This document shows, in pieces, positions 103 to 29,200 of a stretch of DNA of 29,214 bases. Numbering within the stretch: position 1 is the first letter of the stretch; each line of letters starts with the position of its first letter. Source of the DNA: a virus; IMG/VR virus record IMGVR_UViG_3300030085_002549, positions 1-29,214 of that record. One strand, written 5' to 3'. The translations under genes and the position numbers were made by a program. The notes under the pieces are model-generated. The model was given only the letters and a program-made list of their open reading frames with translations, searched no databases and was not told the origin of the DNA.

Positions 103-224
103 TTTGCTCTCTTTTTACGACCAGCACAATGTGCTTTTTGTGAGAATCCTTTTGGATTAGAGCAGTCAATACTCTTTTTATATTTATTACTCCAAGACTC
201 TTGAAACTGCTTAAACGTCTTCAT
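99..224 (-). CDS. 41-residue basic protein with CTS-like N-terminus
   Basis: ATG at 222-224 overlaps the stop of the coiled-coil gene (ATGA); the TGA at 99-101 overlaps the next ATG the same way. The product begins MKTFKQFQESW and ends in NPKGFSQKAHCAGRKK plus RAK. It has 12 Lys/Arg in 41 residues, and Cys21, His32 and Cys33 could bind a metal, though this is unproven. The KGFSQKAHC-type tail recurs in small cyanophage proteins as I remember it. The first ten residues resemble the T4 capsid-targeting sequence MKTYQEFIAE, so it might be an internal head protein. That is a hypothesis. The double ATGA overlap and motif content argue that it is a real gene. Confidence 0.75.
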   Translation of the reverse strand: MKTFKQFQESWSNKYKKSIDCSNPKGFSQKAHCAGRKKRAK

Positions 225-2410
225 ACCTCTAATGCGGTAAAAACTACTTTAAAAGTTGTCTCTGATGAGAATGCTGGATGTCCTATTAATCTTAATGATC
301 CGCTACTAATATCCGATGAGAATGTAGCTACTCCGATTGGTTGATTGATTATACCGTACTCTGACATGTACGTATTAGTACCATCATGAATGATATTAAT
401 GGTTGACATGTTATAGTTAGTTCCTCTTGTAACCTGAACCTGATAATTTACGGATCTATAAGTTGATGCACTTATGGACATTACGACTGCAGCGTTTGTG
501 CTAGTTGTAGTTAAAATACCAGACTGTATATCACCAGCGATCAATTCAAGATTAGTTGCTGAAACAGGAGCAAATGTAAATTCTTCTGACGAAGCATCAT
601 ATCTTAAGAATCTACCATCACCAAGATTTGCAGTGTCAACATCAGTAAGATCAATTAGTTGTGTTGAACCTCCACTACCACCAAGTGCAGTGCTAGCAAT
701 ACCGACCCACTTTGCTCCGTTGTAAATGAGCAGTTCATTAGTTCCAGTGGTTTGATCGAAGGTAACATCATCCAGATCCTTTATGAACCCAGCACCGCCA
801 CCACCGATAGTAGCAATTTGTTGCTGAATTCTATTGATAAACAGTTTGTAATGCTGTTGTAGTTGATCAATAGTTACAAAGTTTTGATCAAGAGGAGTTA
901 ATGGATCTGCCGAATTATTTGTCGATGCATCTCCTGGAAGTGTTGGATTATCTTCCTTTAATATTGCTTTTTCGTTGAATTCAGAGAGAATTTTTTCAAT
1001 GTACACTACCTTTTCAAATAAGGCCTTGTTCTTTTCCTCAATAGATTCAATCTGAAGTCTCTCTATAACATCTTTTACTTCTTCTTTGATATTATCAATA
1101 CTTTCATTTTGTTTTTTAATATGTTTTTCATTGACAACCAGATTAAGTTCTAGATCCTTAATTTGATTTGACATACTCTCTTCAAATTCACCCACTTCAT
1201 TTTTGAGAATGTCATAATATTTTGTTGTGCTAATATCTAGTACATTTTGCAGTTCTCTTACATCTTCAGCAATAGTTTCTTCAAAGAAAGAAAATTTCTT
1301 AGAGAACTTATCAAGTTCTCCCGAGTATTCCTCTAGCTTTTTGTTTTCATGAATCTCTCTATTTTTGAAGTCTTTATATAGAGATGTATATACATTAGAT
1401 ATCTCTGTTATTTTTTGTTTGGAGTCATCAATCGTTGATTGCAATTCGTCAACCTTTGCTTCAACTAAAGAATCAATATCAGAAGTTTTCTCTGTAATAT
1501 CACTAGAAAGAACTTCAATTTGTTCTTTCAGCGACTGAACTTGATCCAATACATTTTTTTCGAGTTCTTTTACTTCCTCTTCTGACTTTATCTTAGTCTC
1601 AATAAGCAGATTACTATACTTAGGAATTTCATTCTCAGTAAATTCATTAACCATTGAGGTTAATTTCTCAATGACTTCATCATATGCAGAGACTCTTTGT
1701 TCAGTCTTTAATTCAGTTTCTGCAAACAGTTTTTTGTACTTTGGAAACTCTTCATTAACAAGATTACTTACAGTCTCATTAATATTTTTTGTTGTTTTTC
1801 TTAAATCTTTTTTTAAGTCAGATACAATATTTTCATTAACTGTCTCAACACCTGCTAAGGCAGTGTTTACTTCTCTATTAATGTCTTCTTTAATACCATC
1901 AAGATCTTCTTCCACTAAACCTTTAAAACTTGCAAATCTAGTATCAAATCTAATCTCCGACTCTGATACTAACTTTTTGTAGTTTGGAATATCAACATCT
2001 ACAAAATTCTCTACAGTTTCAGAAAGGTTTATAAAGTCTTCTTTTATCTTATCAATAGTATCTCCATTGATACTCTTTATTCGTCCCTCAATCTTTTTGA
2101 TTGACTCCTCAACAAAGAGAAGATGAGCAACCATTGCCTCATCCAAATCCTCTTTACTAATCAGTCCTCTGATATCTTCTTTTACTTCTGAGATTTCTTT
2201 AGAAATACTCTCAACTTTATCAACATTATCTTTAAAGTTCTCAACTGTATCTGAGAAATCTGATATAGACTGAATATGATTTAAGTTTGTTTTAAAAGCA
2301 CTAAAAGCCTCAGATACCGTTTCAATTTTTTCCGTGGAAACAGTATCTTTGATTTTGTCAAAGTCGTTTTTATTCTTACCAAAAAAATCTGAAGGCTTCT
2401 TTAATGCCAC
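221..2410 (-). CDS. Long coiled-coil fibre-like structural protein between gp16 and gp17 positions
   Basis: A 729-residue protein. The GTG start is chosen because GGAG lies 11 bases upstream and it gives MALKKPSDFFGKNK. Residues about 15-475 are rich in Glu, Lys, Ile, Val and Leu with few Gly or Pro, a predicted long coiled coil. Within it, three copies of an E(T/M)V..F...IPKYKKL..ET..K unit start near residues 131, 212 and 252. A short linker (490-510) leads to two L.DL.DV....G..L.YD...W repeats at 542-573 and 585-616. A beta domain follows at 627-729 with TINIIHDGTNTYMSEYGII. This layout (rod plus C-terminal head) fits a fibre or neck whisker. T4 has no gene here, so the role is inferred. 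Its TGA overlaps the next ATG. Confidence 0.82.
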   Translation of the reverse strand: MALKKPSDFFGKNKNDFDKIKDTVSTEKIETVSEAFSAFKTNLNHIQSISDFSDTVENFKDNVDKVESISKEISEVKEDIRGLISKEDLDEAMVAHLLFVEESIKKIEGRIKSINGDTIDKIKEDFINLSETVENFVDVDIPNYKKLVSESEIRFDTRFASFKGLVEEDLDGIKEDINREVNTALAGVETVNENIVSDLKKDLRKTTKNINETVSNLVNEEFPKYKKLFAETELKTEQRVSAYDEVIEKLTSMVNEFTENEIPKYSNLLIETKIKSEEEVKELEKNVLDQVQSLKEQIEVLSSDITEKTSDIDSLVEAKVDELQSTIDDSKQKITEISNVYTSLYKDFKNREIHENKKLEEYSGELDKFSKKFSFFEETIAEDVRELQNVLDISTTKYYDILKNEVGEFEESMSNQIKDLELNLVVNEKHIKKQNESIDNIKEEVKDVIERLQIESIEEKNKALFEKVVYIEKILSEFNEKAILKEDNPTLPGDASTNNSADPLTPLDQNFVTIDQLQQHYKLFINRIQQQIATIGGGGAGFIKDLDDVTFDQTTGTNELLIYNGAKWVGIASTALGGSGGSTQLIDLTDVDTANLGDGRFLRYDASSEEFTFAPVSATNLELIAGDIQSGILTTTSTNAAVVMSISASTYRSVNYQVQVTRGTNYNMSTINIIHDGTNTYMSEYGIINQPIGVATFSSDISSGSLRLIGHPAFSSETTFKVVFTALEV
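563..787 (-). repeat. Two LxDLxDV fibre repeats in the coiled-coil protein
   Basis: Residues 542-573 (FIKDLDDVTFDQTTGTNELL, then IYNGAKWVGI) and 585-616 (LIDLTDVDTANLGDGRFLRY, then DASSEEFTFAPV) are copies of a unit common in cyanophage fibre proteins. They link the rod to the C-terminal beta head. Confidence 0.65.
1541..2020 (-). repeat. Coiled-coil internal repeat
   Basis: Three diverged copies of a roughly 40-residue unit lie at residues 131-290 of the fibre-like protein, with cores IPNYKKLVSESEIR, FPKYKKLFAETELK and IPKYSNLLIETKIK. The spacings are about 81 and 40 residues, which suggests duplication of a helical rod segment with a Pro hinge. Confidence 0.65.
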
Positions 2411-2432: not shown

Positions 2433-2855
2433 TTATTTATTCTCCTCTTTTACGCCCTGTTTCAGCATCTTTGCAAGTTCTGCTGTGGATCCAACAAATA
2501 ATGCGTTATTAACAGTAGAGGGTCCGCGAGATTGTTTTTCTTCTTCGACATCCTTCAGTTTTTTCTGAAGATCCATCAGTTTATCTGTGGCATCAGCAAC
2601 ATTTTTAATCAATTGGCCTGCAACTTCATATGCTCTAGGCATCTCACTTTCTTGTGCAAGTTCTAAAATACCATTAATTGCTTCTTGCCCTTTTTCGATT
2701 ATACTATAAAGATTACCCCTTGTATAATCATAGTCTTTCTTGACATCATCTGTTGTTTCTTTTACTTTTTCTATCTTTGCATTAACAACTTCAGACTGCA
2801 CAATGTCTCCCTTGACGTTGAACTCATCATTTAAACTATCAAATTTACTTGTCAT
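2433..2855 (-). CDS. gp16: Terminase small subunit gp16
   Basis: The 140-residue protein matches T4 gp16 (164 residues), which forms rings that regulate the gp17 motor and start DNA packaging. The central part, SEMPRAYEVAGQLIKNVADA followed by DKLMDLQKKLKD, aligns with T4 [31 protein letters not shown]. The C-terminal STVNNALFVGSTAELAKML aligns with T4 NIQNATVFMGSPTELMDEI. The helical central region is the oligomerisation part in this family. The start overlaps the gp15 stop, so translation is probably coupled. The large subunit gp17 is not in the window and should lie beyond the left edge. Confidence 0.92.
   Translation of the reverse strand: MTSKFDSLNDEFNVKGDIVQSEVVNAKIEKVKETTDDVKKDYDYTRGNLYSIIEKGQEAINGILELAQESEMPRAYEVAGQLIKNVADATDKLMDLQKKLKDVEEEKQSRGPSTVNNALFVGSTAELAKMLKQGVKEENK
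2434..2441 (-). promoter_or_regulatory. Candidate late promoter before the coiled-coil gene
   Basis: The coding strand reads AATAAATA, overlapping the end of gp16 and 23 bases before the GTG of the next gene. It is identical to the octamer before gp8. A GGAG ribosome site (2422-2425) follows, 11 bases before the GTG. Confidence 0.45.
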
Positions 2856-3853
2856 GTTAACGAACCACTAAATCCAAAGTCATCACCTTCCTCAATTAAT
2901 GCATTATCTGCAGCATTGATGATATGCACCTCTGCACCTCTAAGGTGTTCTGTTGCAGTTGTTTTATCTTGTCCTCTTAGAACAGTTAGTTTGTTATCAG
3001 TGATAGACTTAATGAATATACTCTCATCATCGATTACTATGTAAGACTTGGCAGTCAAACCACTTGCACTCTCAACCTCAATTATCTTACCAGTCTTGGA
3101 GGTATCAACAGAAACAGTGGTAGATGCATCTCCGGTATAATTTTTGGTTGCTCTTGGAACAGTAGAATATGTAACTTCTCTTGTAGTATTTGTGATGTCT
3201 GTTCCAGTAAGGTAACTGACAGTTGCTCTCTTGATGATATCCTTGGTCGCAGATGTAGCAGGACCAAACAGATACGTTTTTGCTGTAAATCTTAAGGTAT
3301 AGAGAAGAACTCTTCTAGTTGTAAAGTCTCCATCATAATCATCTTGCATGGTGATATTTTCAAGTATCACTGGAATATCACGTTTCTCCTGTATTGATTC
3401 GACTAATTCTACACTTAAATTATATGATGGTTGAAAGTATGGTAAAATTTGTTCTACAATTTGTAATGCATCATCATTTAACTTTGTCATGATGCTCAGT
3501 TCAAACTGCATGTTGTAAGGAACTGGCATGTATACTTTCTTTGACTCTGATCCATCATTTGGATCCTTTACAGTATACTGCTGCGTTGTTGATACCTTTC
3601 TTGCAGGATCATAAGTCATTCCAGTAAACTCAAATGACATTCTTGGCAATGTTATCGCAGTTCCTTTATTGAGATCTGCTTGCTGCTCAAGTCTTGCAAG
3701 AAATTTTTGAGTAGGCCCATAGGACAGGGGAACTCTGACAGTGTTGATCACATTGTCAGACGAGTTAGTTTGTTTGATAGTTAAAGAATTAAAAAGAGTA
3801 CCAAAAGATACAATGGTTCTTCTCAAAATCTCGTTATAAAAATATTCAAACAT
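2852..3853 (-). CDS. gp15: Tail terminator / sheath stabiliser gp15 with extra C-terminal module
   Basis: The 333-residue protein matches T4 gp15 (272 residues), the hexameric ring that caps tail tube and sheath and joins the tail to the neck. Diagnostic parts are MFEYFYNEILRR at the start (T4 MFGYFYN.S.RR) and NDDALQIVEQILPYFQPSYN at 126-145 (T4 EDDMFQIVEQILPYFQPHFN). DYDGDFTTRRVLLYTLRFTA at 172-191 also fits T4. Residues about 245-312 form an added module with YIVIDDESIFIKSITDN and LTVLRGQDKTTATEHLRG, resembling units in the two giant proteins. The end, EEGDDFGFSG, looks like the usual cyanophage gp15 tail. The TGA overlaps the gp16 ATG by ATGA. Confidence 0.94.
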   Translation of the reverse strand: MFEYFYNEILRRTIVSFGTLFNSLTIKQTNSSDNVINTVRVPLSYGPTQKFLARLEQQADLNKGTAITLPRMSFEFTGMTYDPARKVSTTQQYTVKDPNDGSESKKVYMPVPYNMQFELSIMTKLNDDALQIVEQILPYFQPSYNLSVELVESIQEKRDIPVILENITMQDDYDGDFTTRRVLLYTLRFTAKTYLFGPATSATKDIIKRATVSYLTGTDITNTTREVTYSTVPRATKNYTGDASTTVSVDTSKTGKIIEVESASGLTAKSYIVIDDESIFIKSITDNKLTVLRGQDKTTATEHLRGAEVHIINAADNALIEEGDDFGFSGSLT

Positions 3854-3893: not shown

Positions 3894-3901
3894 TATTTAG
3901 G
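3894..3901 (-). promoter_or_regulatory. Candidate late promoter before gp15
   Basis: The coding strand reads CCTAAATA, overlapping the gp14 stop codon and 40 bases before the gp15 ATG. The octamer is identical to the one before gp13. It lies at the edge of the largest gap in the window (43 bases). Confidence 0.45.
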
Positions 3902-6455
3902 GGATCCCGAATGGGTTCTGCTCACTAAAGTCTAGAATAGAATCTGCCTCAGTTTCGATATTGATATTATCAGCAAATCCATCATCTGCAGGTTGAATAT
4001 TAACTGATCTAAGATCATAAGAGGCTCCTGAAGTAGATCCGGTAATTGTCTCACCAAAAGTAAATTCTCCAGTTACGGATGAAATTTCTAGAATACTATC
4101 GTCAGCTTTCCAGACCACAACTCTTCCAGTTGATCCGCTCACAGATCCAGTAACAATTTCATTGAACACAAAAGTTCCTGATCCACTTGATTCTGATGCA
4201 GAAACTGTTATTTCCGGTTCAATTACATATCCATAACCAGCATCTAAGATATTCAAATGCGATATTGTTCCAGCTGCACTTACAGTCGCTATTCCCGTCG
4301 CAGTGGCAATACCAGCAACTTCTTCGACATAATTCTTCTCCGATACCTCATTGGAAATGGTTACAGTAGGCGGTGCCAAATATCCACCACCACCAAAAGT
4401 AACAGCAATTCCAGTTACAATTCCACAATTCTCAATACCAAATTCAAATACCGATGTCGCAATGCCAACATTTGTGGCAGACTCTGACATGGTTAGAGAA
4501 TTGGAACCAATAGATTGTACAAAGATATCTGCAGGTATAAAGTTATATGGTTTGTTATATCCAACACTAAGTCTTACTCTGTCTCCTACAATAATATTGG
4601 TTGTAGTAATTCCAGTAATTACACTAGATCCTATACCAACAGTGCCCTCAGTCTTAATTGATGTAGATCTAATGGTCGCAATACCAAGTGCTCTAAATTG
4701 CTCATCTCCTCCCGAAGAACCAGAAATAGTAACTGTTGGGGTAGTCAAATATCCAAATCCGCTATTACCTATACTAATAGTATTAACCGTTCCAGCAACT
4801 GAAACAGTAACTGTAGCAGTTGCTTGTACTGGGGATGGATTTCCACTGAAAGATATAGAAGGTGCTACTGTATATCCAAGACCAATAGTTGCTCCAGTGC
4901 CAACGCACCATGGATCTGTCGTACTATTAAATCCAACTGCTGTAACGATACCCGTAATAGGATGAATCGTTGCGATACCAACAGCGACTTGAGTTGGAGC
5001 ATCCATGACTCCAGACGTTGAGATTGCAACCGTAGGTGCAGTTGTATATGCTCTACCAGTAGTACTAAATGCAACAGAACTTGGATTTACAGAAGAACCA
5101 GCAATACCTATTGTTGCAGATGCAAAACTAAATCCTGGATGAGTGATGGATACTGATGGAGCACTGGTATAGAATTTACCTCCCGTGGTAATTGCGAGAG
5201 TTTCTACTGTTCCTCCAGTCTGTGACAACTGGTCTAAAGTTGCAGTTGCTTGTGCAGCATTTCCTGTACCTGTAGGTAATGCAAACGTAACTGTAGGTGC
5301 TGTTTTATAGAATACGCCACCAGTTGTTCCTCCTGGGAACAAGAATGCAGATGCACCGATACTTATTGGTGCAGATGTGACACTAACACCACCACCGACA
5401 ATTGGACTATCTAGAACAGCAGTAGCAGCTGCACCAACATGTTTTGGAGTAGATATTGTGACTGTGGGTGAGGTTGTATATCCAGATCCTCCCGAAGATA
5501 TTGTAACTATTCCAACACCACCGGTTGTTGAAATACCAACTGTTGCTGCAGCACCAGCTCCACTATTAGAGACAAATCTCACACCAGGTGAATTAGTATA
5601 TCCACTACCTGCATTTAAAATCTGAACCTGTTGAACAGATTGTGCCTTTGGATTTGCACTTTGATTACAAACGTTAATTCCTCCAATCATTATTGCAGTA
5701 GCAATACCAGTAACTCCTCCAGATGGGGCAGAGGATATTGCTACTCTTGGTGGCGCTAGGTATCCACCACCTCTATTGGTCAATCTAATGAATCTAATTG
5801 CTCCATTTGTAATTCCAGCAGTTGCTGTTGCAGTTGCTGCTGCTCCGACCAGAGTAAGTCTTTGAGTATTTCCAATGATTGTGGATATACCATCCTCAGT
5901 TAATCCATCAGACTCTCCACCAGTTAAAACATCATCAATTTCTTCTATACCAGTGTCAATAACTTCATCACCATATCTAAAGAGTTCGCACCTTAACTCA
6001 TAGACATAGTTTTTCTGTAATTGATAAAATGGTTTTTCATGCTCAACAAATTTAATTTCAAATAGACGATCACCAAGAGGAAAATAAATTAAGTCTCCTT
6101 CTTTTGGTCTTGTTGATAATTTTATATTTTCCTCATTTCTCATCAAAGGAGAAATATAAGTTTCAAATCTTTCCTTTGAAATAATTAAATTTAATTCTTG
6201 TTGTTGCTGAATTCCAAACTTTGATAATATCGTTGTGTTATCATTATACCCATCAAAATTATCAATGTAGGCTTCAATAGGATATGCATCATCAAACTTA
6301 GATTGAATTACCTCTTTGATAATTGTTTTCTCTGTTAAATATTTTCTTGGAATATAATGCACTTCGACACCATACATCCTCAACTGTTCGTTGATAAGAT
6401 CTTGAATTAGATTTTGTTCAGACCTTGCTCCTTGTTGGAAATATGGATTAAGCAT
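3897..6455 (-). CDS. gp14: Neck protein gp14 with a large internal repeat insertion
   Basis: An 852-residue protein, against 256 in T4 gp14. Residues 1-185 are the gp14 core: MLNPYFQQGARSEQNLIQDL, YGVEVHYIPRKYL, IYFPLGDRLFEIKFVEHEKP and YVYELRCELFRYGDE. The last ~25 residues (INIETEADSILDFSEQNPFG) look like the gp14 C-terminus. Between them is an insertion with ten GxGY-x3-P type repeats at about residues 229-752 (for example GSGYTTSPTVTIS, GFGYLTTPTVTIS, GGGYLAPPTVTIS), then two GETxTGSTSGA-type units at 758-815. There is no frameshift or stop, so the expansion is a real part of the protein. gp14 binds gp13 in the neck; the inserted part probably projects outward (inference). It sits between gp13 and gp15 as in T4. 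Confidence 0.92.
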   Translation of the reverse strand: MLNPYFQQGARSEQNLIQDLINEQLRMYGVEVHYIPRKYLTEKTIIKEVIQSKFDDAYPIEAYIDNFDGYNDNTTILSKFGIQQQQELNLIISKERFETYISPLMRNEENIKLSTRPKEGDLIYFPLGDRLFEIKFVEHEKPFYQLQKNYVYELRCELFRYGDEVIDTGIEEIDDVLTGGESDGLTEDGISTIIGNTQRLTLVGAAATATATAGITNGAIRFIRLTNRGGGYLAPPRVAISSAPSGGVTGIATAIMIGGINVCNQSANPKAQSVQQVQILNAGSGYTNSPGVRFVSNSGAGAAATVGISTTGGVGIVTISSGGSGYTTSPTVTISTPKHVGAAATAVLDSPIVGGGVSVTSAPISIGASAFLFPGGTTGGVFYKTAPTVTFALPTGTGNAAQATATLDQLSQTGGTVETLAITTGGKFYTSAPSVSITHPGFSFASATIGIAGSSVNPSSVAFSTTGRAYTTAPTVAISTSGVMDAPTQVAVGIATIHPITGIVTAVGFNSTTDPWCVGTGATIGLGYTVAPSISFSGNPSPVQATATVTVSVAGTVNTISIGNSGFGYLTTPTVTISGSSGGDEQFRALGIATIRSTSIKTEGTVGIGSSVITGITTTNIIVGDRVRLSVGYNKPYNFIPADIFVQSIGSNSLTMSESATNVGIATSVFEFGIENCGIVTGIAVTFGGGGYLAPPTVTISNEVSEKNYVEEVAGIATATGIATVSAAGTISHLNILDAGYGYVIEPEITVSASESSGSGTFVFNEIVTGSVSGSTGRVVVWKADDSILEISSVTGEFTFGETITGSTSGASYDLRSVNIQPADDGFADNINIETEADSILDFSEQNPFGIP
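4200..5771 (-). repeat. GxGY-x3-P protein repeat array inside gp14
   Basis: About ten diverged repeats of 35-120 residues share G-x-G-Y-x3-P-x-V-x-I-S followed by an Ala/Thr-rich GIAT or AATA segment. GY centres lie near residues 232, 286, 326, 382, 428, 469, 528, 569, 692 and 743. Copies differ at DNA level, so the array is old or selected rather than freshly amplified. Confidence 0.8.
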
Positions 6456-6459
6456 ATGA

Positions 6460-7305
6460 TTAACCGATCATGTCCAATGGTGGAAGTTCATAAGTGTTAG
6501 ACATAACTTCTCTAATTGAATCAAGCTCTTTTTGAGCATCATCATAAATTTGTCTACCGTTAAGTTCAACGCCACCAGGTAATTTTACACCCTGGAACTT
6601 CATTAAATTTTGTCCCCACTGTCTTTTAATTAGTTGAGTTACATATCTCTTGAGGAATGAGTCATTCCAAACTCTACTAAAATCATTTGGATCTAAAAGT
6701 CTATAGCAATCAATGATAAGATAATCATCCTTAGTAACGTCACTCCAATCAACATCCAAATAAAGTCTATCTTGTCTTTGATTAAATCTTATCTGTTTCT
6801 CCGTATTCAATGCAAAGTCCATGTCTTCAAGATATCTCTTTGTCATTGCATAAGTTAAAACTTCAGTGGAACTGAAATAATAAATGTCATTTAAAAACAT
6901 TTGATATTTCACACTGAACATATTATTGGTCACCGTTTGTGACCCGTCATATCTGAATATTTTGTTTATCCCAATAACTTGTGAAGGAATCTGCAAATAG
7001 TTACTGTTTTCCTCAAAAGAAAACGTTACAGATGAACCATCTATAGTTGAAGATGCTGTTGTGGTTACAATACCAACAGTTTGATTATTTCCTCTAGTTC
7101 TTCCTCTATTAATGTCACCTTCTGTAATTTTATATTTTAGGTATGTTTGAACTACACCATCAAAATGTCTTTCATGAAAATACTGAAGAGCATCATCTAT
7201 TAGATCATCAATTTGCTCATCAGCAACGTTGATTTCTAAAACCGGTGCTCCCAGTTGTCTCTTACAATAGTTTATTAAATCAGACCTACTTGCTGGTTGA
7301 GCCAT
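6460..7305 (-). CDS. gp13: Neck protein gp13
   Basis: The 281-residue protein belongs to the T4 gp13 family, which with gp14 forms the neck that seals the filled head and receives the tail (T4 gp13 is 309 residues). The N-terminus is diagnostic: CKRQLGAPVLEINVADEQID, then DDALQYFHERHFDG, close to T4 RRLGAPI...LTPDQIYD...ALELYGEYHFDG. The middle and C-terminal parts, with LLDPNDFSRVWNDSFLKRYV, WGQNLMKFQGVKLPGGVELN and a closing EVMSNTYELPPLDMIG, fit cyanophage gp13. The ATG is preceded by AAGGA at 12 bases. Four bases separate its stop from gp14. Confidence 0.93.
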   Translation of the reverse strand: MAQPASRSDLINYCKRQLGAPVLEINVADEQIDDLIDDALQYFHERHFDGVVQTYLKYKITEGDINRGRTRGNNQTVGIVTTTASSTIDGSSVTFSFEENSNYLQIPSQVIGINKIFRYDGSQTVTNNMFSVKYQMFLNDIYYFSSTEVLTYAMTKRYLEDMDFALNTEKQIRFNQRQDRLYLDVDWSDVTKDDYLIIDCYRLLDPNDFSRVWNDSFLKRYVTQLIKRQWGQNLMKFQGVKLPGGVELNGRQIYDDAQKELDSIREVMSNTYELPPLDMIG

Positions 7306-17271: not shown

Positions 17272-20200
17272 TCAAGTGATGTAATTCTTGAATTTCAGTG
17301 GAGCAGATCTCTCTACTCTAGTCGATGTGGTAATTCCAAGAACACCACCTTCAGTGTATGCAGTGTAACTATTTAATCCTGCTCTTGAGTCAAGCGTAAT
17401 TTTACCCCAACTATAGTCTCCATATCCAGCAACAGTAGATACAGATTGTGTTCCAATACCACTGGTATCAAACACTGGTTGAGTAACATCAACGAATACT
17501 CTTCTACAGACAGTTGTTCCAATTCCTACACCAGAAGAATTCAAACGAATTGTTCTTTGAACGTTTATGGCGCGAGCAACGACATATACATTATCAACGA
17601 AGGACTTACCTACACCCACTGTGTTATCACTAGAATCAAGTGATGTAATAGATGTTGTTGCAGATCCAACATTAGAATTAGTAACAATGAAGTAGTCATT
17701 TGGTTCCAATCCACTCAAAGTCACTGCTGTTCCAACTATAGAAGTGTCTCTTAACTTAGAATCGAACGGAATATGCAAGTCAAAGACGAATTGTGTGGTA
17801 AGACCAGCAGTTGTTGTGGTTCCAAATCCAACAATGATTCCAGAATCACCTGCAAAATCTATAGCAGTATTTTCTTCTTCACTATAACTAGGTTCGCTTA
17901 TAAGTACGATTGGTGGATTTGTATGAGTATATCCAGTTCCAGCATTTGTAATTGTGACGGAGGATATTGTTCCTCCAGCACTAATGACTGGATTTGCCAG
18001 AGCAGTCGTAAGTCCAAGATGTGGGACAAGATGAGAGGTTGATCCAATAGTAACCACAGCAGTGCTATAACCAACTCCACCATCTGAAAGAACAATAGAC
18101 GAGATAGTTCCTGTACTACTTACAACAGCAGTTCCTGCTGCTCCAGAAGTTACTGCTTGATTTGCAAACTTAAACTTATTCTGGAATGCTAAGGCCGTGT
18201 CATTTTCATTTATTCCATTGAAAAGAGGTCTTGCTCTATCAACGTAAATTACTGTGGATCCAATGCCAACAGACTTGGTAATGTATGCATATGGGTGAAT
18301 TTGTGGTTCATAAAGCTCTCTATCTTTAGAAACACGTTTTTCGTCAATAATTTTATCCTCGGTTTGTCTGCACCACATAACCCTTCTCTGTAAGGTTTCG
18401 TCTGCAGTGTTTCCTGGTCCAAAGTATGCAAACGTTTGAACTTGATCAGTTGAGTTTACATTAGTTACCGTTCTTGGATCTTCTTGTAAGAAAGAGAGTT
18501 GCGTTGGATTTGCATTGCGATCATATCCAAGAGTTAAAGTATCACCTTGCTTGACTGTTTCGATGACTTCTTTAAAGATGACATCAGTGTCATCACCAGT
18601 TCCCTTGTAGAATAGAATCTTACAACTATCACCTGGTTTTGGTGCTTCTGTAAATTTGATTACGCTGCCACCTGGGAATTCATAACCTTTACCTGGTTCT
18701 TGAAGAATATCATTAATGGTAACGATAAGAATTTTTTCAACATCAACCTTAGAACCTCTTGGTGCTCTAATTGAAATTTGAGATCCCGCAAGAGAGAGAT
18801 TAAACGCCCTAGTAGATCCATCAAAAAGAACTGATGGATCATCAAGTGTTTGAAGAACACCAAGACTCCATCCAGTAAATTCATCAGAGAATACTTTCTG
18901 GACTGTTAATTCAAATTGTCTAAAATCACTATGTGATCCTGTCGTAGGAATTCCAGTAAGTCCGCCAGTTGGAATAGTAAGAACTTCGCCTGGCTTGTAT
19001 CCAACACCTTTATTATTGATGCTGAAGTCAACGATACTAGAACCATTACCAACTACGATATCAACAGTTCCATTCAGTCCTGAGTTTGCTGCACCAACAT
19101 AATTAAGTGGAATGTTGGTGTAGGAAAGTGGATCGTCAACAAATAGAGAGAGTGGTCTGTTAACTTTACCACATCTATTGTAGAAATGAGCACAAGTTGA
19201 AGTTCCTGTATTGACTACAAAAGAAGTAGGGCTAAGAACTGCTATGACAGAGGAACCATCAGATGCAAAATCATTTCCACTAGCAGACTTGTTTTTCTTT
19301 CTAGGTGCATTGATAATCGCGCCTTGTACTGTTCCTCCAGTCTTATAGAATGTTGGAACTGTAGATGGTCCAGTGTTAACAACGAACTGAGTTGAACTCA
19401 GAACTTCAAGAACAGGAACTCCACAATATGCGGGATCAGTTGTTCTTGGATAATAATGCGGATTAACAGCGTCATATTCACAGGTCATTCCAATACTAGT
19501 CAGAACAACACCTTTTCCTACCAACAAATTATGTGCTGTCGCAGTGGTAATGGTTGTGATTCCACTTACTGTGCTATAACCAACGTTGGATACGTTAACA
19601 GGTGGTGCATAAGTACAAGTGAATGCGATACCAGACAATTGAATTGCTTCTCCTGCACTTAATCCATGAGCAGTGGATGTAGTAACGGTTGTTATTCCTG
19701 TAATAGAACTATACCCAACATTACTGATTGATTTTGCGGGATAGAATCTTGCAGACGAATTGTTTGTTACAGAGATGGCAGTAGAAACATGCCCATTAAT
19801 GATGGTTGCAAATCCAACATGATAAACTGAAGTTTCGACACCAACACTTGTAGAAGCAGCACTGATATTAACAAATCCGACTGGAGGATTGGAAACACTA
19901 ATACGAGCCTGAGTTCCTGTAGGAATTCCGATAGTCGCTTTATCATCTATATGAAGTCTTACAAAAGTAGATGCAGATGATACAATTGTTCCGGAGACAA
20001 AGGTATCACCAATTCTTCCAAATTTTATTTCAGAATTAGAACCATTATTGATATGTGGGAGAATATCAAGAACTGCTTTGGTATTTGGAATGTATACTTC
20101 AGTGGATCCAATTCCTACAAATTCGTTTGTATTAACTAAGAACTCATACTTTTCAGCGGCTCTATATCCAGACCCAGTATTGCCAATTGCAACATCAGTA

Positions 20201-23200
20201 AGAACTCCAACATTAGTGACCTTAGCAGTTGCACCAGCAGAAACGAGAGGTTGATAACCAAATCCCTCTGTAGAACCCATAGAAAGAAGAACACCACCAA
20301 CTGGTAATCCAGATGTGTTAGCATCAGTAGTTGTAGAAGATGCAGTTCCGGTGAATGCAATAGTAGTAATACCAGTATTTTCTCCAAGAGTGAAATCTCT
20401 AGTAAGTCCAGGACCTTGAAGAATATCATTAATTAAAATGATTGCATTTCCGGTAGAAATTCCAGAAATATCTGATGATCCAGCAGAAGTTAAAGTATAT
20501 ACTGAAGTATTACCATCAAACTTATTTGAAATACTATCAAAAAGATAATTCGTAGAATAAGTATCAGTGCTGATACCTTCAGCACCAGATCTCATAAACG
20601 TTCTTCCTTGGAAAGAAGAACTTCCAGAGATACCTTCCCAATCTCTTTCGTCAGGTGGATTTGTTGTACTACCAATCGGGACTTGACCATATGGTGCTTC
20701 CGCGAAGTGAAGAATACTATCAGTAATGTTATAGTTTCCAACAACCTTAGTAATTGGATCACCAGTCGCTCCAAATCCAATTAGTGTTCCTAATTGGCCT
20801 CTCTTAACTCTAACTGAATTTGTACTTCCAACACCAACGGCAGTAATCTTCATAATTTCATCACCCATCTTAATAAGATCAGATCCAAAATATGATTGTA
20901 TACCACTTAACTTGATAATATTATCAACAGTGGTGACATTGGTAGAAAGACCTGTTGTTTGTGAGGTTGCAACAATTGGAGATTGAATTAAATTATCAAG
21001 GGCAATAAGACATCTTGCATTTTGATTAGTTGCGCTAAATCTATGTGAAGTTCCAATTCCAACACTAGTGATATCCATGGCGACAGGAATCTTCTTCAGT
21101 GCATTTTCTGCAGTGGATGCCAGTTGAATTTTTTCATCATCAATTTTAATTGCAAATATATCAGTGTTGATTGGTAAGAATTCAGTATTACCAACTCCAG
21201 AAATATTAGTTAAACCAATACCAATAGAAGAAGTGATTCCGCCGTTTCTATCATATCTGATTTTTTCTCCAGAAACAAAGAAGTGGTTTGGAAGAGTAAT
21301 TGTATTAGCACTAATACTAACAATGTTGGAATCATTTCCTAAGAAATACTTTTCAAATATTGGCGCAGATCTGTGCTCCAAAGTGAAAGTCTTCTTAACA
21401 GAATTTTCTGTTCCTTCATATCGTGCAAAATTACTAACAAACAAACCATTACCAAAGCTTCTTTGATCTTTAGCATCATCTTCAAGTCTTAACGCAGTCA
21501 TATACGTTTTGACATCAACATCAATATTTGCTTCAGGAGTAAATGTTATGGAAACTCCGCCGCCAGAATTAATTCTTGCACCAAATGTTCCAAGACCACT
21601 TACATATGGCATAGTAGTATCAGTTTCTACGATACCAAAGTCCTGAACTTCTACATCTCCAGTACCGTTTTCATTACTATCGGTATCCATGAGAATAAGT
21701 TCTCTCATTTCATAGGTATTATTGGTTTTATCTGTGATTGATACCATGAAGTATGCGGAATCAAATACTGCATCATAATCACCAACAGTGGTTATCCCTG
21801 GAGTTCCAGAAGACGCAATTGAAGTTGATCTTCCCTCAAGAAGGGCATGTTTCATCTCATCAGTGCTAATTCCAGATATTCCATCAGTACCAAAACCAAT
21901 TTTTAAAGTATTAGAAGTTAATGCAACACCTACACTTGGTATAAAATCAACTTTTAATGTATTACTATCAATATATGGATAGTAAGTTCCAAATCCTGGT
22001 CCAGTGAATGAAGTACTATTTTCATTTGATACTAATCTACCAAATTCAGTAACGCTAACTTCAGTATCGTCGTGAATGATATTCAATTCATCATATTGAT
22101 GATCATTGCTATCTGGATCAGAAATGAGAGCCATGACCTTCATTGATCTGGTTGTTGCAGCAGTAGACACAACGGTTGTCCTAGATCCAGCACCTGCGGG
22201 AACAGCAACACTATTAGTGCGAATATCTACACCTCCATTTCCTAACACTATGGAGGTTCCGAGACCCACTACATTATCATCCAAGTGATATGCGAGACTT
22301 ACAATTTGATAATCATTAACTGCAAAATTTATTGGGAAAAACTGCAGCGAACCTTGAGTTCCGGCAACCTTAAAGTCAAAGTCTGCAAGATCACCTACAC
22401 TAACCATTCTTCCATATTGATTCATGAAAGAAATTTGTCCATCTTGAAGTAGAGACACAATTCCAAATTGTCTTTCACTCTGGAATCTTTCATCTTTAAA
22501 GTATACGAAATACTTTAAGAATCTGCTGGTGCTAACATTAAACTCATCAATCAGTTGAAATCTAGTTGCTCTAGGATTGCTATTGAATTGACCACTTACA
22601 TCATCAAAGTCAACGGCTCTGTTTCCGAAAGATTCAAAGAAATCTGTTAAAATTCTACTTGCGAAAATAATTTCATCAGAGAAAACACTATTACCAATAT
22701 TAAGAGAATTTTCTAAAGCAAGGTCAAAATCATAGAAACAGTTAAAGTCACCAATACTATAAAGATCATTAACAGAAGTGAAATATGAAAGTTGGGTAGA
22801 TAATCCAACTTGCATCGAGTTGCCGATAACTTCCGAAAACTTTGCTGGTGTTTCTAACTGATAGTCAGAGAATTTTTTAAATCCAGCTGTATGATTTGTT
22901 GCACTTACGACATCATTCCAACTATCAAAATCAACTTTTGATCTGAGAGAATATGAGAAGTTTTGATAATAGAAACTATCTTGAACTCTCTGCATGTTAG
23001 CATTAAGGAATCCAGATTCAGTTTGAGAACCTTTAACTACTCTTGATGATGCATCAGTGTTAAGAATAGACTCATATACTACTACTTCATCAGCAACTCC
23101 CTGAGTTTTTGATGCAAGTCCTTCAATAAGTTCTCCTTTGACAAAATTCTTAGAACTTGATACTCTTAGTGTTCCAGTTTTTCTATCCCAACTTTCTACA

Positions 23201-26200
23201 ATTCCAGATGCTGTGGAAGATTTAACTTCTTCCCCATTAAGAAATTCATTGTCCTTAAGATTAACATCAAAGATTGGAAAATGTCTTTCTGAGATAACTC
23301 TACCGGAAGAATTAAATTTATCAAATGCTCCGATAAATTCGCCTATGGATGAATCAAATAAACCATCCAAACTATAACTGAAAGTTGCTCCAACTCCACC
23401 CAAATTTTTATCTACAGCAATAACCGGGAATAACTTATATCCATGATCAGAAGAGTTATAACCTATACCAGTAGAACCAATACCAATACTGATATTTTCA
23501 ATTAATACTTTATCTCCAACTTCAACAGGAAAATCATCAGATGCACTAAATCCAACAGACAATTCAGCCGTAACTTCTTTGGTTACTGTATTGAATCCAA
23601 TCGTACTAATTCCACATCCATTAGTATTGAAAACTGGCAATATGGTTGGAACTGTGTTACTAATTCCCTTTGTGTTCTTAAGAACAGTTACTCGATCATC
23701 TCCAAGATCGTATTTGAGATCTACGTCTTTAATCTGTTCATTTGTTTTTCCATCGAAAACCAACAATCTAGGTGCAGAAGAATATCCTCTTCCGCCAGAT
23801 GATATTCCAATAAAATCAAACGATTTTAATGATCTAATTTTGATGAGGTTTGGCAGTGTAATAGATGGTCTGAGAGTTCTATCTGATGGGAAGTCAAATC
23901 CAATATCTTTTATGTTTGTTTTGGTTATTCTCCCAATAGAATTACTTTCTGCTTCTAAAATAACACCTTTACCGTTAGTGGTAGAAACTGTGGTAATACC
24001 TGGTAATGATTGATATCCCTGACCACTATTGATAACTTCAACTCGTGCTACAGGACCATCTGTGTGAGTACAATCTGTTTCATAGTTAATTTCAGATAAA
24101 CCAGCGGTACTGTAAGACGATTTTTCTGGAGTTGGTCCTACGGTAAAACTAAACGAATTGGGTTCTACACGAGAAATTTTATGTTTTCCGTTGTAGATAC
24201 TGGGAGAAATGTTTATCGTATTATTTTCAAAAATTTCATTATCAGTGTTAATCTCAGTTTTTATTGCAGGAACTTCTCCAGACTCATATGTTGGATCAAG
24301 TCTATAATAAAGTTTTTCTGGTGTATTATCATTAACTACCAAAGTAACCTTAGCAATTCCATCAATACCAACAGTACCATCTCTAGTTACATCGTAATTT
24401 TTACCATCACTAATTTTTCCAACATACTTGTTAGTAAAGTTCTTATCATTATATAAATTAAATTCAAACGAAGGATAATTTGTAGATTGAACTTCGTGTG
24501 AAAGAGTAGGGCTCGTTAACGTAAATGTAACTGTAGAATCTTTATATACTTTTAGCGGAGGATTGATTGGATTAATTACTCCGCCGCCACCAGTGCTTGC
24601 AACTCCAACTGTATTTGGAATTTCTAAAGTAGCATCATTTAAGGTATTAGAAAATTTAAATGTATTTTTGTCAATTACGTAAAGATAGTAAATTGAATTA
24701 TTTGTCAATCCCTCTGTAGGATTACTACCGTCTTCAGTGTAGACAACTTTTTGACCCTTAGTAAATCCATGGTTCTCTATTGTAACCACACCTGTCGAGG
24801 TATTAATTCCTGTAGAAGAGTATGATTTTGGATCTATAATCAATTTTCTATTAAAATCATTATATGAAATGTTAAAGGCAGATGTAATACCTGGATTAAC
24901 ATCCAATACTATATCATGACCAACATGAATGCCGTGAGATACACCTGTAGCTACAGTAACAGTGTTTTTGCTAATAGTTCCCTTAATTACACTATAATTT
25001 GTTTTGAGACTGTGATAAACACCTGTGCCTATTCCAAGGAATGCTAGAGTGGTTGCGGTCGATGAGCTACCAACAGGACCTTCAAATGTTCCTGTGCTTC
25101 CAAGACCAACTCTTGCGGTCGCTAAACCAATTAAATTGTTGGCAATTTTTGCTACAAATAAATTGGTTCCATCAGAAACAGTTGTTCCTATTCCGGCACC
25201 ACCAACTTGTCCTGGGGTATGATTGTCTTCGACAACAATTCCATCTCCTCCATTGGCAGAGTAAGTTACTATATCACCAGTTTGAAGTCCATGATCTTTG
25301 ATGAAAATAGTTTTAGTAGGTATTACAATAGATGTAGCTCCAGCTCCTGGATTTTCAAAGAAAATAGTGGTCCCAATACCAACTCCACCTGTGCTACCCA
25401 ATCCAACGACCTCTACTGGGTTAAAATACAATTGTTTGTTTACTTTGTAATCAATATCAGTTTTAAATCCGGCAATAACACTTAACTTTCTTTGAGTTAC
25501 CGTTGCTGCAGTGCCAACAGTATGAGCAACTCCAACGACACCATTTACAGATCTGATAACTCTAATTCTAGACAACCGATTATCTACGTTCAGAACTTTT
25601 ACTTGCTCTGTCCCAATCTGAAGAATGTCATTTTCTCTAATATCTGGATAATTAAGATTACCAGTTAAATTAAAGTAAGTAACAAATCCGGTGTAAGAAA
25701 CGGTTCCAATTCCATTAGTCGAAATACCTGTGCCAGCAACCTTGTATACATTTGTACCAATACCAGCGGCATAGATTCCCTCAAGATCTGATGCCGTTGT
25801 TGTTATACCACTTATTGATATTGTATCAACATTTGAAAGATTATGAGGATTATCAGAAAATAGTAAATATCTTCCCTTTCCATTAGGATAAAATTCTACA
25901 TTTTCAATAGAGCTAGTAGCAACACTTACACTATCAACTGGTTTTCCTAAGACGTGTGAGACCCTTGCAGAAACGCCTCCACCGCCTGTATCTGACTCGT
26001 TGAATACAACTGGGTCACCTACCTTGTAATTGTTCCCTCCGGTTACAATACCAACTCTAGTGATTCCACCCCTTGCGGCATTTTTAACCTCAATCTTTTG
26101 AGTTAAGTTTGCAGGTAATGAAAGATATCTATATTGAATATCTCTGTCATCAAAGAAGTTATATGGATTAGTATTTTTTATGTAATCAGTCGTATTGATT

Positions 26201-29200
26201 CTAAAATCATCTTGATTTGATACTTTTTGGAAATTAAACTCCTCTGGTTTTGCGTGGAAATTATCTCCAACCAAGTATGGGAATTTTGGTCTTCTAAAAT
26301 TAGTAAATGGAGATTGTGTATCAGCATCATCAGACGCTATTGTAGCAAAATATGCATATGTTCCATTTGGAAAATCTGGAGTTACGCAATGTCTTCCATT
26401 ATTTTCATCAAGGACAGATTCACTAGTTTTGTTTTCATAAACAAAATCATTAATAAAGAAACCAGATGGCCATGTTGTTAATGGGGGTCTCTGTGGTGCA
26501 TCTGATTTCTCAACATATCCAGTCTTCATGATAGTGACAGCACCACCAGATCTCGTTGAATAACCATATGGACCATAAATTGGATGTCCATCATATGCCC
26601 ATCCAATGATTGGAGAATGATTTTCTGCGATTGCTTCTTGTTTTGTATTAACGTTTATTTGTAAATCAGCATCTCCATGAAGTGTATTGCCATTACCATC
26701 AACAGCATAAGATAATTGTCTTAACTTTCTTGGAGCGTATAAGTGAGAGTATTGTAATCCAAAATCTTCATTAGTTCCAACATCGATAACTCCATCATCA
26801 TCGCTAAGTGAATAAAGATATTTTTGAAAAAGGTTAACCCTCCATGTCTGTAATTTTGCCTTTAATACTTCACCGTCTCCTGGATGAATTACATTAACAG
26901 TTGTTGTACTTTGTTCATACCCTGCTCCAGATTCAAGAACCTTAACTTCTATCAAAGTTCCATTACTTAACACTGGAGTTATAACTGCACCAAGTCCTTC
27001 TCCTTCAATTACTAGATCTGGGGGTGAAACATACTGTCTACCAGGATTTAATACAAGAACTTCTTCTATTCTTCCTTGGTTTATAATCGCTTGACATTGT
27101 GCTGCTTCACCAGGAACAGCAATAACTAAAGGTGATCTATCTAAATTCAGAACTTCAGATGCACCATAACCAACTCCATTATTTGATAAATTAACTGATG
27201 TAATTTCCCCTCTAAAAATTGGTTGAAGTTCAGCTTGGAAAGTTTCTAGGCCGATCGAGGAGATACCAATCTGTCCAGTGATAGAAACTGAAATTTCTGG
27301 ATAATTGAACGAGTGTGTTCCAGCACCAATTGATGTTAAATTGATAAATTGATTAGTTTCATAAAAATATCTTTTTGTTGATGTTGTAAGTCCAACATTA
27401 GTTAATCTAAACTTATCATCATTTAATTTAATAACATAATATTGACTACCATCAGTTAATCCACTGATAGGAGAAGATCCTGCGATATATTTTACTATCT
27501 CTCCAGACTTATAATCGTGGTTTTTAATCTCGATACAGTTAAGAGATGTGCTTACACCAGTTACTCCACAAGATCTTTTTTTATTTTGATATCCTTCGCC
27601 ACTACTAATAACCGAAATTGATTCAACAACTGATTTTTTGTTTACTGTTTGAAAACTATGCAATCCATTACCAAAATCTGTCAATACTACAGTATTAATA
27701 CCAGCAATAACATCATCAAGAGTATTGTGGAGTGTTATCGTTGTATTATTAGTAGTTCTTGCAAAATACTTTGCATCTGTCGATAATCCAGCAATACCAG
27801 ATTGTCCATTAGTTTTATAAATGACATGTTCACCATTTCTAAATTTATGATAAGTTGAGAAACCAATAGTAGATGTAGCATTACCAGTGCTAACACCTGC
27901 GGAGGACATTTCAGCAAAAAATGAAACTGAATAATCGATCAACTTCATATTTGCTTGAGCCGATGCTCCATCTCCATTACCACCAATAATAGTGATAATA
28001 GGATTCTCAACATAGTCGAATCCAGGATCTAAAACTCTAATAGATTCTAGAGAACCAGAAACTGCAATGTTTCCAGTAGCACCTGTTCCTACACCATCAC
28101 TAATAAGCAGTTGTGGAGGATCAATGATATCAAAATTTTCTCCAGGAGCAAGAACTTCAATATCATCAATCTGACCATAATAAACAACATCAGGTGCTTT
28201 ATAGTTTAAGATTTCAACACCATTGACTAGAATTCCATTATATCCAGGTTTGGTTTTTGTTAATTCGCCAGTATGCTGAGCATTTTTCGGAATTTGTCTT
28301 AAAAGTTTTTGTGAAGTTAAAGACTTACCTTGAAAGTTAAATGGTCTTAATACATTGTCAGTTACTGTGACTTGACTCTCAACAGATACGAATTTGTTAT
28401 TATAAACGTCATTTTTACTCTTTGCTAATTTAATACTTGTGTCAGACAATCTCTTAACATAATACATACCATCTGGGAAATTAGCACCTAAAGATTCATT
28501 TCTAACTTCTCTTACATCAAGTTGCCCTCGATCATTGAAAAATCCTTCTGTTCCAACTCCTGCAGAATAATAAACTGCATCCCCAGAATAAAAATTATGT
28601 TTTGATCCAGGAGTTATTGCTAATTCTTCCCCTAAGAATGTTCCAGAAAAAGTTACAGATCTATCAGAAGCGTTAAGTCTTGAACCAAAATATGATGGTA
28701 TGGATGAAGAAGCTACAAGAAAATCTTCAGATCTGTCAAAAACACCCTGAACATTTGCTTGGTATGTTGAGGCTGAAATAAAGTTAGCAGCATCACCACT
28801 CAATACATTTCTTTTGACAGAATATGTTTTATTAATATCTAAAGCGCCAGATCCTTTTATTGAAACTGATTTTTCGGAGTTAATTCTATATACCACTCCT
28901 CCTGTTTTAGAAATTCCTTTTAATTCTTTTACATCAATTTTATCATTCTCTCTAAAGAAATGTTTTTTATTTAAAACTAAATCATAACTGTTATCGGAGG
29001 AATCTATTAATGTGATAGAATTAATTAAGTATTCCGAAGCATAGTTATAAAACCAATTGTTAAAAACTGGTGTATCGAAATCATTACCTAAGGTTTTAAT
29101 TTGTGCAATATCTCCGTCTTGGAAATTTTTTGTATCTGCTGGATATACAAAATCACTCAGAACTGCATTGATTCTTACCTTGATTGTTTCATCTGGATTC

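Follow-up and report, generated by a model that had tools for sequence, protein, structure and literature searches.

The gp14 neck protein encoded in IMG/VR record IMGVR_UViG_3300030085_002549 carries a chain of beta repeats that probably forms an external decoration of the neck, lying between the genome gate and a presumed gp15-binding tail and containing a cassette exchanged between phages; we put the probability of this reading at about two in three. The whole stretch of DNA analysed, positions 1 to 29,214 of that record, is called the window here. Its gene order at the locus is gp13-gp14-gp15-gp16, and among isolates it is closest to S-SM2, a Synechococcus phage of the genus Nilusvirus (Kyanoviridae), with 78.5% DNA identity across 75% of the region. 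Neck proteins are usually taken to be invariant plumbing, whereas here near-identical marine viruses have or lack a large module.

The gp14 core and its repeat chain

An uninterrupted ORF on the minus strand (window 3897–6455) encodes gp14, a neck or head-closure (stopper) protein of 852 aa assigned to PF11649 and PHROG 460. The Pfam T4_neck-protein profile (PF11649) covers residues 1–176 with an E value of 1.6e-31 and 110.1 bits against a cut-off of 25, and T4 gp14 chains in the PDB align to residues 2–171 (E ~3e-26). The modeled core, a T4-like beta barrel spanning residues 1–178 (window 5922–6455, minus strand), superposes on solved T4 gp14 (9lu4_M) with a VIA Z of 9.6 over 99 residues at 40% identity, and the equivalent of the T4 stopper loop falls at residues 63–86, where the aligned columns contain no gaps. 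By core profile, gene order, and barrel fold, the window gp14 is a T4-type neck protein and a presumed genome gate (stopper). The first-pass annotation had placed the end of the core near residue 205, but the profile match ends at about residue 176. T4 gp14 (PDB 9MKB and 9LU4–9LU7) shares with the window protein the core fold, the position between gp13 and gp15, the stopper-loop segment, and a tail after the barrel; it differs in being 256 residues long, as first stated, in lacking repeats, and in having a tail without NPFG. The same core is found in Kyanoviridae gp14 of PHROG 460 (S-SM2, 481 aa; P-SSM2, 470 aa; S-CAM9, 657 aa), together with GxGY repeats, the FxxGE module, and NPFG.

Beyond the barrel, all on the minus strand, lie a Gly/Asp-rich linker of low predicted confidence (residues 179–196, window 5868–5921; pLDDT below 50 at residues 161–194), N-terminal repeats common to short and long gp14 (motifs 1–3, residues 197–345, window 5421–5867), and the main part of the cassette, which is absent from S-SM2-type gp14 and consists of motifs 4–8 and a small beta domain (residues 346–675, window 4431–5420). 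These are followed by the final two repeats found by motif scan (motifs 9–10, residues 676–755, window 4191–4430), an FxxGExxxGxxSGA module (residues 756–820, window 3996–4190) that occurs without GxGY repeats in the gp14 of S-PM2 and S-RIM44, and, at the C terminus, an acidic peptide that terminates in NPFG (residues 821–852, window 3900–3995). An AlphaFold2 monomer model built with 42 homologues gave a mean pLDDT of 75.7 and a pTM of 0.46, with pLDDT of ~80–90 across most repeats; confidence is low in the linker and over the final 30 residues.

The repeats are marked by ten G-x-[GAF]-Y-x3-P motifs at residues 229, 283, 323, 380, 426, 467, 525, 566, 689, and 740, spanning residues 229–747 (window 5771 down to 4215). 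Shuffling residues 179–852 2,000 times gave a mean of 0.07 motifs and a maximum of 2. The ten repeats first counted between window positions 4200 and 5771 stand in both number and place. Their earlier description as GxGY-x3-P holds strictly for seven of the ten copies, the others reading GVFY, GKFY, and GRAY. Spacing between motifs is 40–58 residues, with a single exception, a 123-residue gap between repeats 8 and 9; the repeats before it occupy residues 197–596, and the gap contains an unlike beta domain (residues 598–673, window 4437–4664, minus strand) that superposes on 8eci_1 from Arthrobacter phage Bridgette (rmsd 1.7, 65 aligned residues, 31% identity, VIA Z 7.8) and also structurally resembles a domain inserted in a phage tail-tube protein. 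For the GxGY repeats themselves, phmmer and profile searches detected no relative of solved structure and Foldseek returned no convincing match, which is not proof of a new fold. Virion, tail-fibre, and baseplate proteins in PHROG carry repeats resembling those of gp14. The window also encodes a gp7 homologue of at least 3,980 aa (17272–29214, minus strand, open at the window end); it has GxGY motifs at positions 23771 and 24002, and its YHYH domain matches PF14240 with an E value of 1.5e-22.

At the C terminus, the core had been thought to resume. What lies there is instead a tail peptide conserved in Kyanoviridae, DILDFTExNPFG, with the FxxGE module before it; the peptide is found across the family, with NPFG in 391 of 395 gp14 proteins, but does not align clearly to the T4 tail. 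In T4, the barrel and stopper loop comprise gp14 residues 5–177, and residues 178–256 are disordered before tail attachment and then bound to gp15 (PMC12270204); by analogy, the acidic NPFG tail is presumed to be the gp15 anchor. The beta-repeat chain lies between the channel-closing barrel and a C-terminal tail that in T4 holds gp15.

Length classes across the Kyanoviridae

Comparison of gp14 lengths across the Kyanoviridae, which the first-pass annotation had proposed, revealed a ladder of classes: 272–292 aa (no repeats), ~350–390, 450–500, 525–575, 625–660, 825–885, 945–952, and 1,020–1,110 aa. The classes from ~350 aa upward come from 395 complete gp14 proteins in the fetched loci, a sample that depends on the queries used. 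Among named phages, gp14 has 213 residues in SF02, 256 in T4, 272 in Mosig, 292 in S-PM2 and S-RIM44, 355 in ACG-2014d, 390 in Syn33, 456 in S-T4, 470 in P-SSM2, 481 in S-SM2, 492 in ACG-2014f, 656 in S-PRM1, and 657 in S-CAM9, compared with 852 in the window. The gp14 proteins of Mosig, S-PM2, and S-RIM44 have no GxGY repeats yet keep the core and the NPFG tail, which indicates that the repeats were inserted between core and tail; those of S-PM2 and S-RIM44 also hold the FxxGE module, which in Syn33 is split by the repeats. Thus, the proposed 550–600-residue insertion absent from T4 is right in size (~560 residues), but it reflects a length ladder and a cassette that is present or absent rather than one private insertion. 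Isolate gp14 proteins have 0–8 motifs and are missing a 330-aa block, whereas the window protein has ten motifs and the extra beta domain; the block that short forms lack falls within residues ~346–755.

A second sample of 66 complete gp14 proteins was picked for the similarity of gp13, without regard to how long gp14 was. It contained 53 short forms (460–488 aa), 3 of 563–565 aa, and 10 long forms (852–953 aa), with none between 565 and 852 aa, so that gp14 length in the window's clade is nearly two-state, at ~480 or ~852 aa. That most relatives would lack the insertion and that an assembly error would be found here had been named together as grounds for doubt; the former is the case for 53 of the 66, but no assembly error was found. 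The window comes from a virus record of 35 kb, which could be taken as a point in favour of an assembly chimera or annotation artefact, but long gp14 occurs in more than 60 other contigs (65 proteins of 825–885 aa and 11 longer ones in other records), the frame is uninterrupted, and the sequence is under purifying selection (see below). Because independent contigs carry long gp14, we reject assembly error, and the chance of an artefact is negligible.

A search of 50,697 annotated phage records for the long block yielded no homologue, the sole hit being a weak match in P-HM1 gp7. The long form was found in metagenomic viruses and in no isolate searched, and it has therefore gone unannotated so far. 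Repeats in Kyanoviridae gp14 are already in databases, since PHROG 460 includes repeat-bearing gp14, and our search of the open-access literature turned up no account of them. To judge from the searchable literature and databases, neither the long form nor its nearly two-state occurrence nor its exchange independent of gp13 and gp15 seems to have been described. A cultivation bias against long gp14 was considered (the block is present in 12 of 80 environmental relatives and in no isolate) and set aside, the clade's isolates being too few for significance. P-RSM6, a candidate isolate with long gp14, proved to encode a protein of 291 aa. In Synechococcus phage DSL-LC02 (L108:3126-4424), gp14 is annotated as starting at 3612, too far into the gene, as open frame and homology set in near 3126 or earlier.

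The longest gp14 proteins (1,021–1,109 aa) are encoded by uncultured viruses (L237, L239, L242, L246, L248, L265, L268, and L429–L444) and contain an additional insert of ~200–290 residues that looks laminin-G-like or lectin-like by eye (WHYVYIE...LYLDG). This insert matched no Pfam, NCBIfam, or PDB profile, gave an AlphaFold model with a pLDDT of 30, and was not found in isolates. Long neck proteins also occur outside the cyanophages: BFVD matches of the gp14 model included that of Tenacibaculum phage PTm1 (619 aa), and a protein resembling P22 gp10 was among them too.

Probable exchange of the central block

The clearest contrast is between two loci, L043 (gp14 of 852 aa) and L139 (480 aa), whose partial gp13, gp15, and gp16 are 96.7, 97.3, and 98.6% identical and which differ by a block of ~370 residues present in the long form only. 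Among long forms, pairwise distances in the block correlate at only 0.23 with those of gp13 and 0.17 with those of gp15, compared with 0.80 between gp13 and gp15 and 0.74 between the N-terminal repeats and gp15 (all bare coefficients). The block thus diverges uncoupled from gp13 and gp15 and has its own history, which would be explained most simply by recombination between phages. In a tree built from 98 core sequences, long and short gp14 alternate, and the window's 53-tip clade requires 16 changes of length state against 17.6 ± 1.9 with shuffled labels; this tree (179 columns, 42 weak branches) serves as supporting evidence only, because many branches are weak and the thinning of rows by length class makes long and short tips more likely to intermingle. 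On these sequence comparisons, the block is a cassette that behaves as exchanged, being gained and lost among cyanophages: the central part of gp14, residues ~346–755, would be acquired, lost, and swapped by recombination with the lengths of gp13, gp15, and gp16 unaffected. Those lengths showed no covariation with block presence.

The repeats resemble one another and the length of the array varies, as would be expected of slippage without any selected function. Such neutral expansion is very unlikely: the length classes are few, the length-blind sample has its gap from 565 to 852 aa, and the block includes a distinct nonrepeat domain. The block also keeps 46–66% identity between distant viruses, and its dN/dS is 0.16–0.19 compared with 0.04 for the core. 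Judged by these ratios, the block is under purifying selection and not decaying.

Behind gp16, the window encodes a 729-aa ORF (221–2410, minus strand) with weak coiled-coil-like matches. A homologue is present downstream in 18 of the 42 loci with long gp14 and in 14 of the 81 with short gp14 (Fisher p 0.004, ignoring relatedness), an association that we did not use.

Probable placement and possible role at the neck

The insert begins directly after the gp14 barrel. Six copies of residues 197–755 would amount to ~329 kDa and ~4.0e5 cubic angstroms, whereas the neck channel offers 1.2–2.5e5 cubic angstroms, as calculated from cylinders of published width and assumed length. The six inserts exceed the channel volume: the lumen would be too small for the chain, leaving room only on the outside. 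From volume and the T4 structures, we infer that the repeat chain most likely projects outward from the neck, where six chains per virion (an inferred copy number) outside the head-tail junction would form a collar or brush. An outward collar or decoration had been suggested from the start: outward is the most likely placement, but the word "collar" fits by position alone, because the T4 collar and whiskers are fibritin, bound on gp13 domain III (PMC12270204), and not gp14. Fibritin (wac) would resemble the window chain, if outward, as a fibrous neck decoration, but it is a separate trimeric protein on gp13 domain III without sequence relation to gp14, and Pfam detected no fibritin C-terminal domain in the window gp14.

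Cyanomyoviruses lack wac, and cryo-EM of S-PM2 shows no collar (PMC2984593). Fibritin_C (PF07921) was absent from four complete cyanophage genomes, T4 being positive with the same model. In a one-phage comparison, the collarless S-PM2 has a gp14 without GxGY repeats. The whiskered St. Kilda phage of PMC2984593 was considered as a possible match to S-SKS1 (gp14 of 491 aa), but the link was not established. In the window's neck adaptor gp13 (281 aa, window 6460–7305, minus strand, PHROG 211), 29 of the 50 positions aligned to T4 domain III, the part that binds fibritin, are kept. A collar made of gp14 itself, in phages without fibritin, would fit these observations; if the chain is exposed, such cyanophages would get a collar encoded in the stopper. 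Anabaena myophage A-1(L) provides a cyanophage neck with extended, bead-chain-like appendages, which differ in being five fibres that are built from three separate proteins and sit on a pentadecameric ring (PMC10966104).

Cleavage of the insert during assembly, in which it would serve as an aid, appears unlikely: the conserved C-terminal tail beyond the insert argues for a chain that stays linked, and S-CREM2 virions contain gp14 (9 peptides, 22.8% coverage, peptide positions not given; PMC10665884), a protein of 347 aa by its coordinates.

The repeats could also lie flat on gp15 and the first sheath ring or on the portal vertex, stiffening the head-tail joint without touching the host. This is possible but doubtful. 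The position of the repeats between barrel and presumed gp15 anchor and their scarcity of charges (39 in 559 residues) are consistent with it, whereas gp13, gp15, and gp16 stay constant in length whether the block is present or not, isolates with 0–4 repeats are viable, and exchange independent of gp13 and gp15 is less expected of a tightly packed interface. Since the block exchanges independently of its assembly partners, a role at the virion surface fits better, and we favour host-surface contact or fibre docking over plain stiffening. The externally placed chain may then make weak contacts with the host surface or dock tail fibres, which is the job of fibritin in T4. More tentatively, the genome-gate protein might double as a host-contact protein, the exposed cassette binding surfaces and passing freely between phages; a protein that closes the channel, a kind usually counted with a virion's conserved components, would then contribute to host range or attachment. 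If the chain is exposed, pairs of long and short forms would offer a natural experiment on the function of neck decoration.

The tail terminator gp15 (333 aa, window 2852–3853, minus strand) has a C-terminal extension of its own, ~85 residues beyond the T4-gp15 domain (PF16724, residues 4–246); residues 235–316 match a tail-fibre family, PHROG 9851. With the repeats of gp14, this makes two adjoining neck proteins with added modules.
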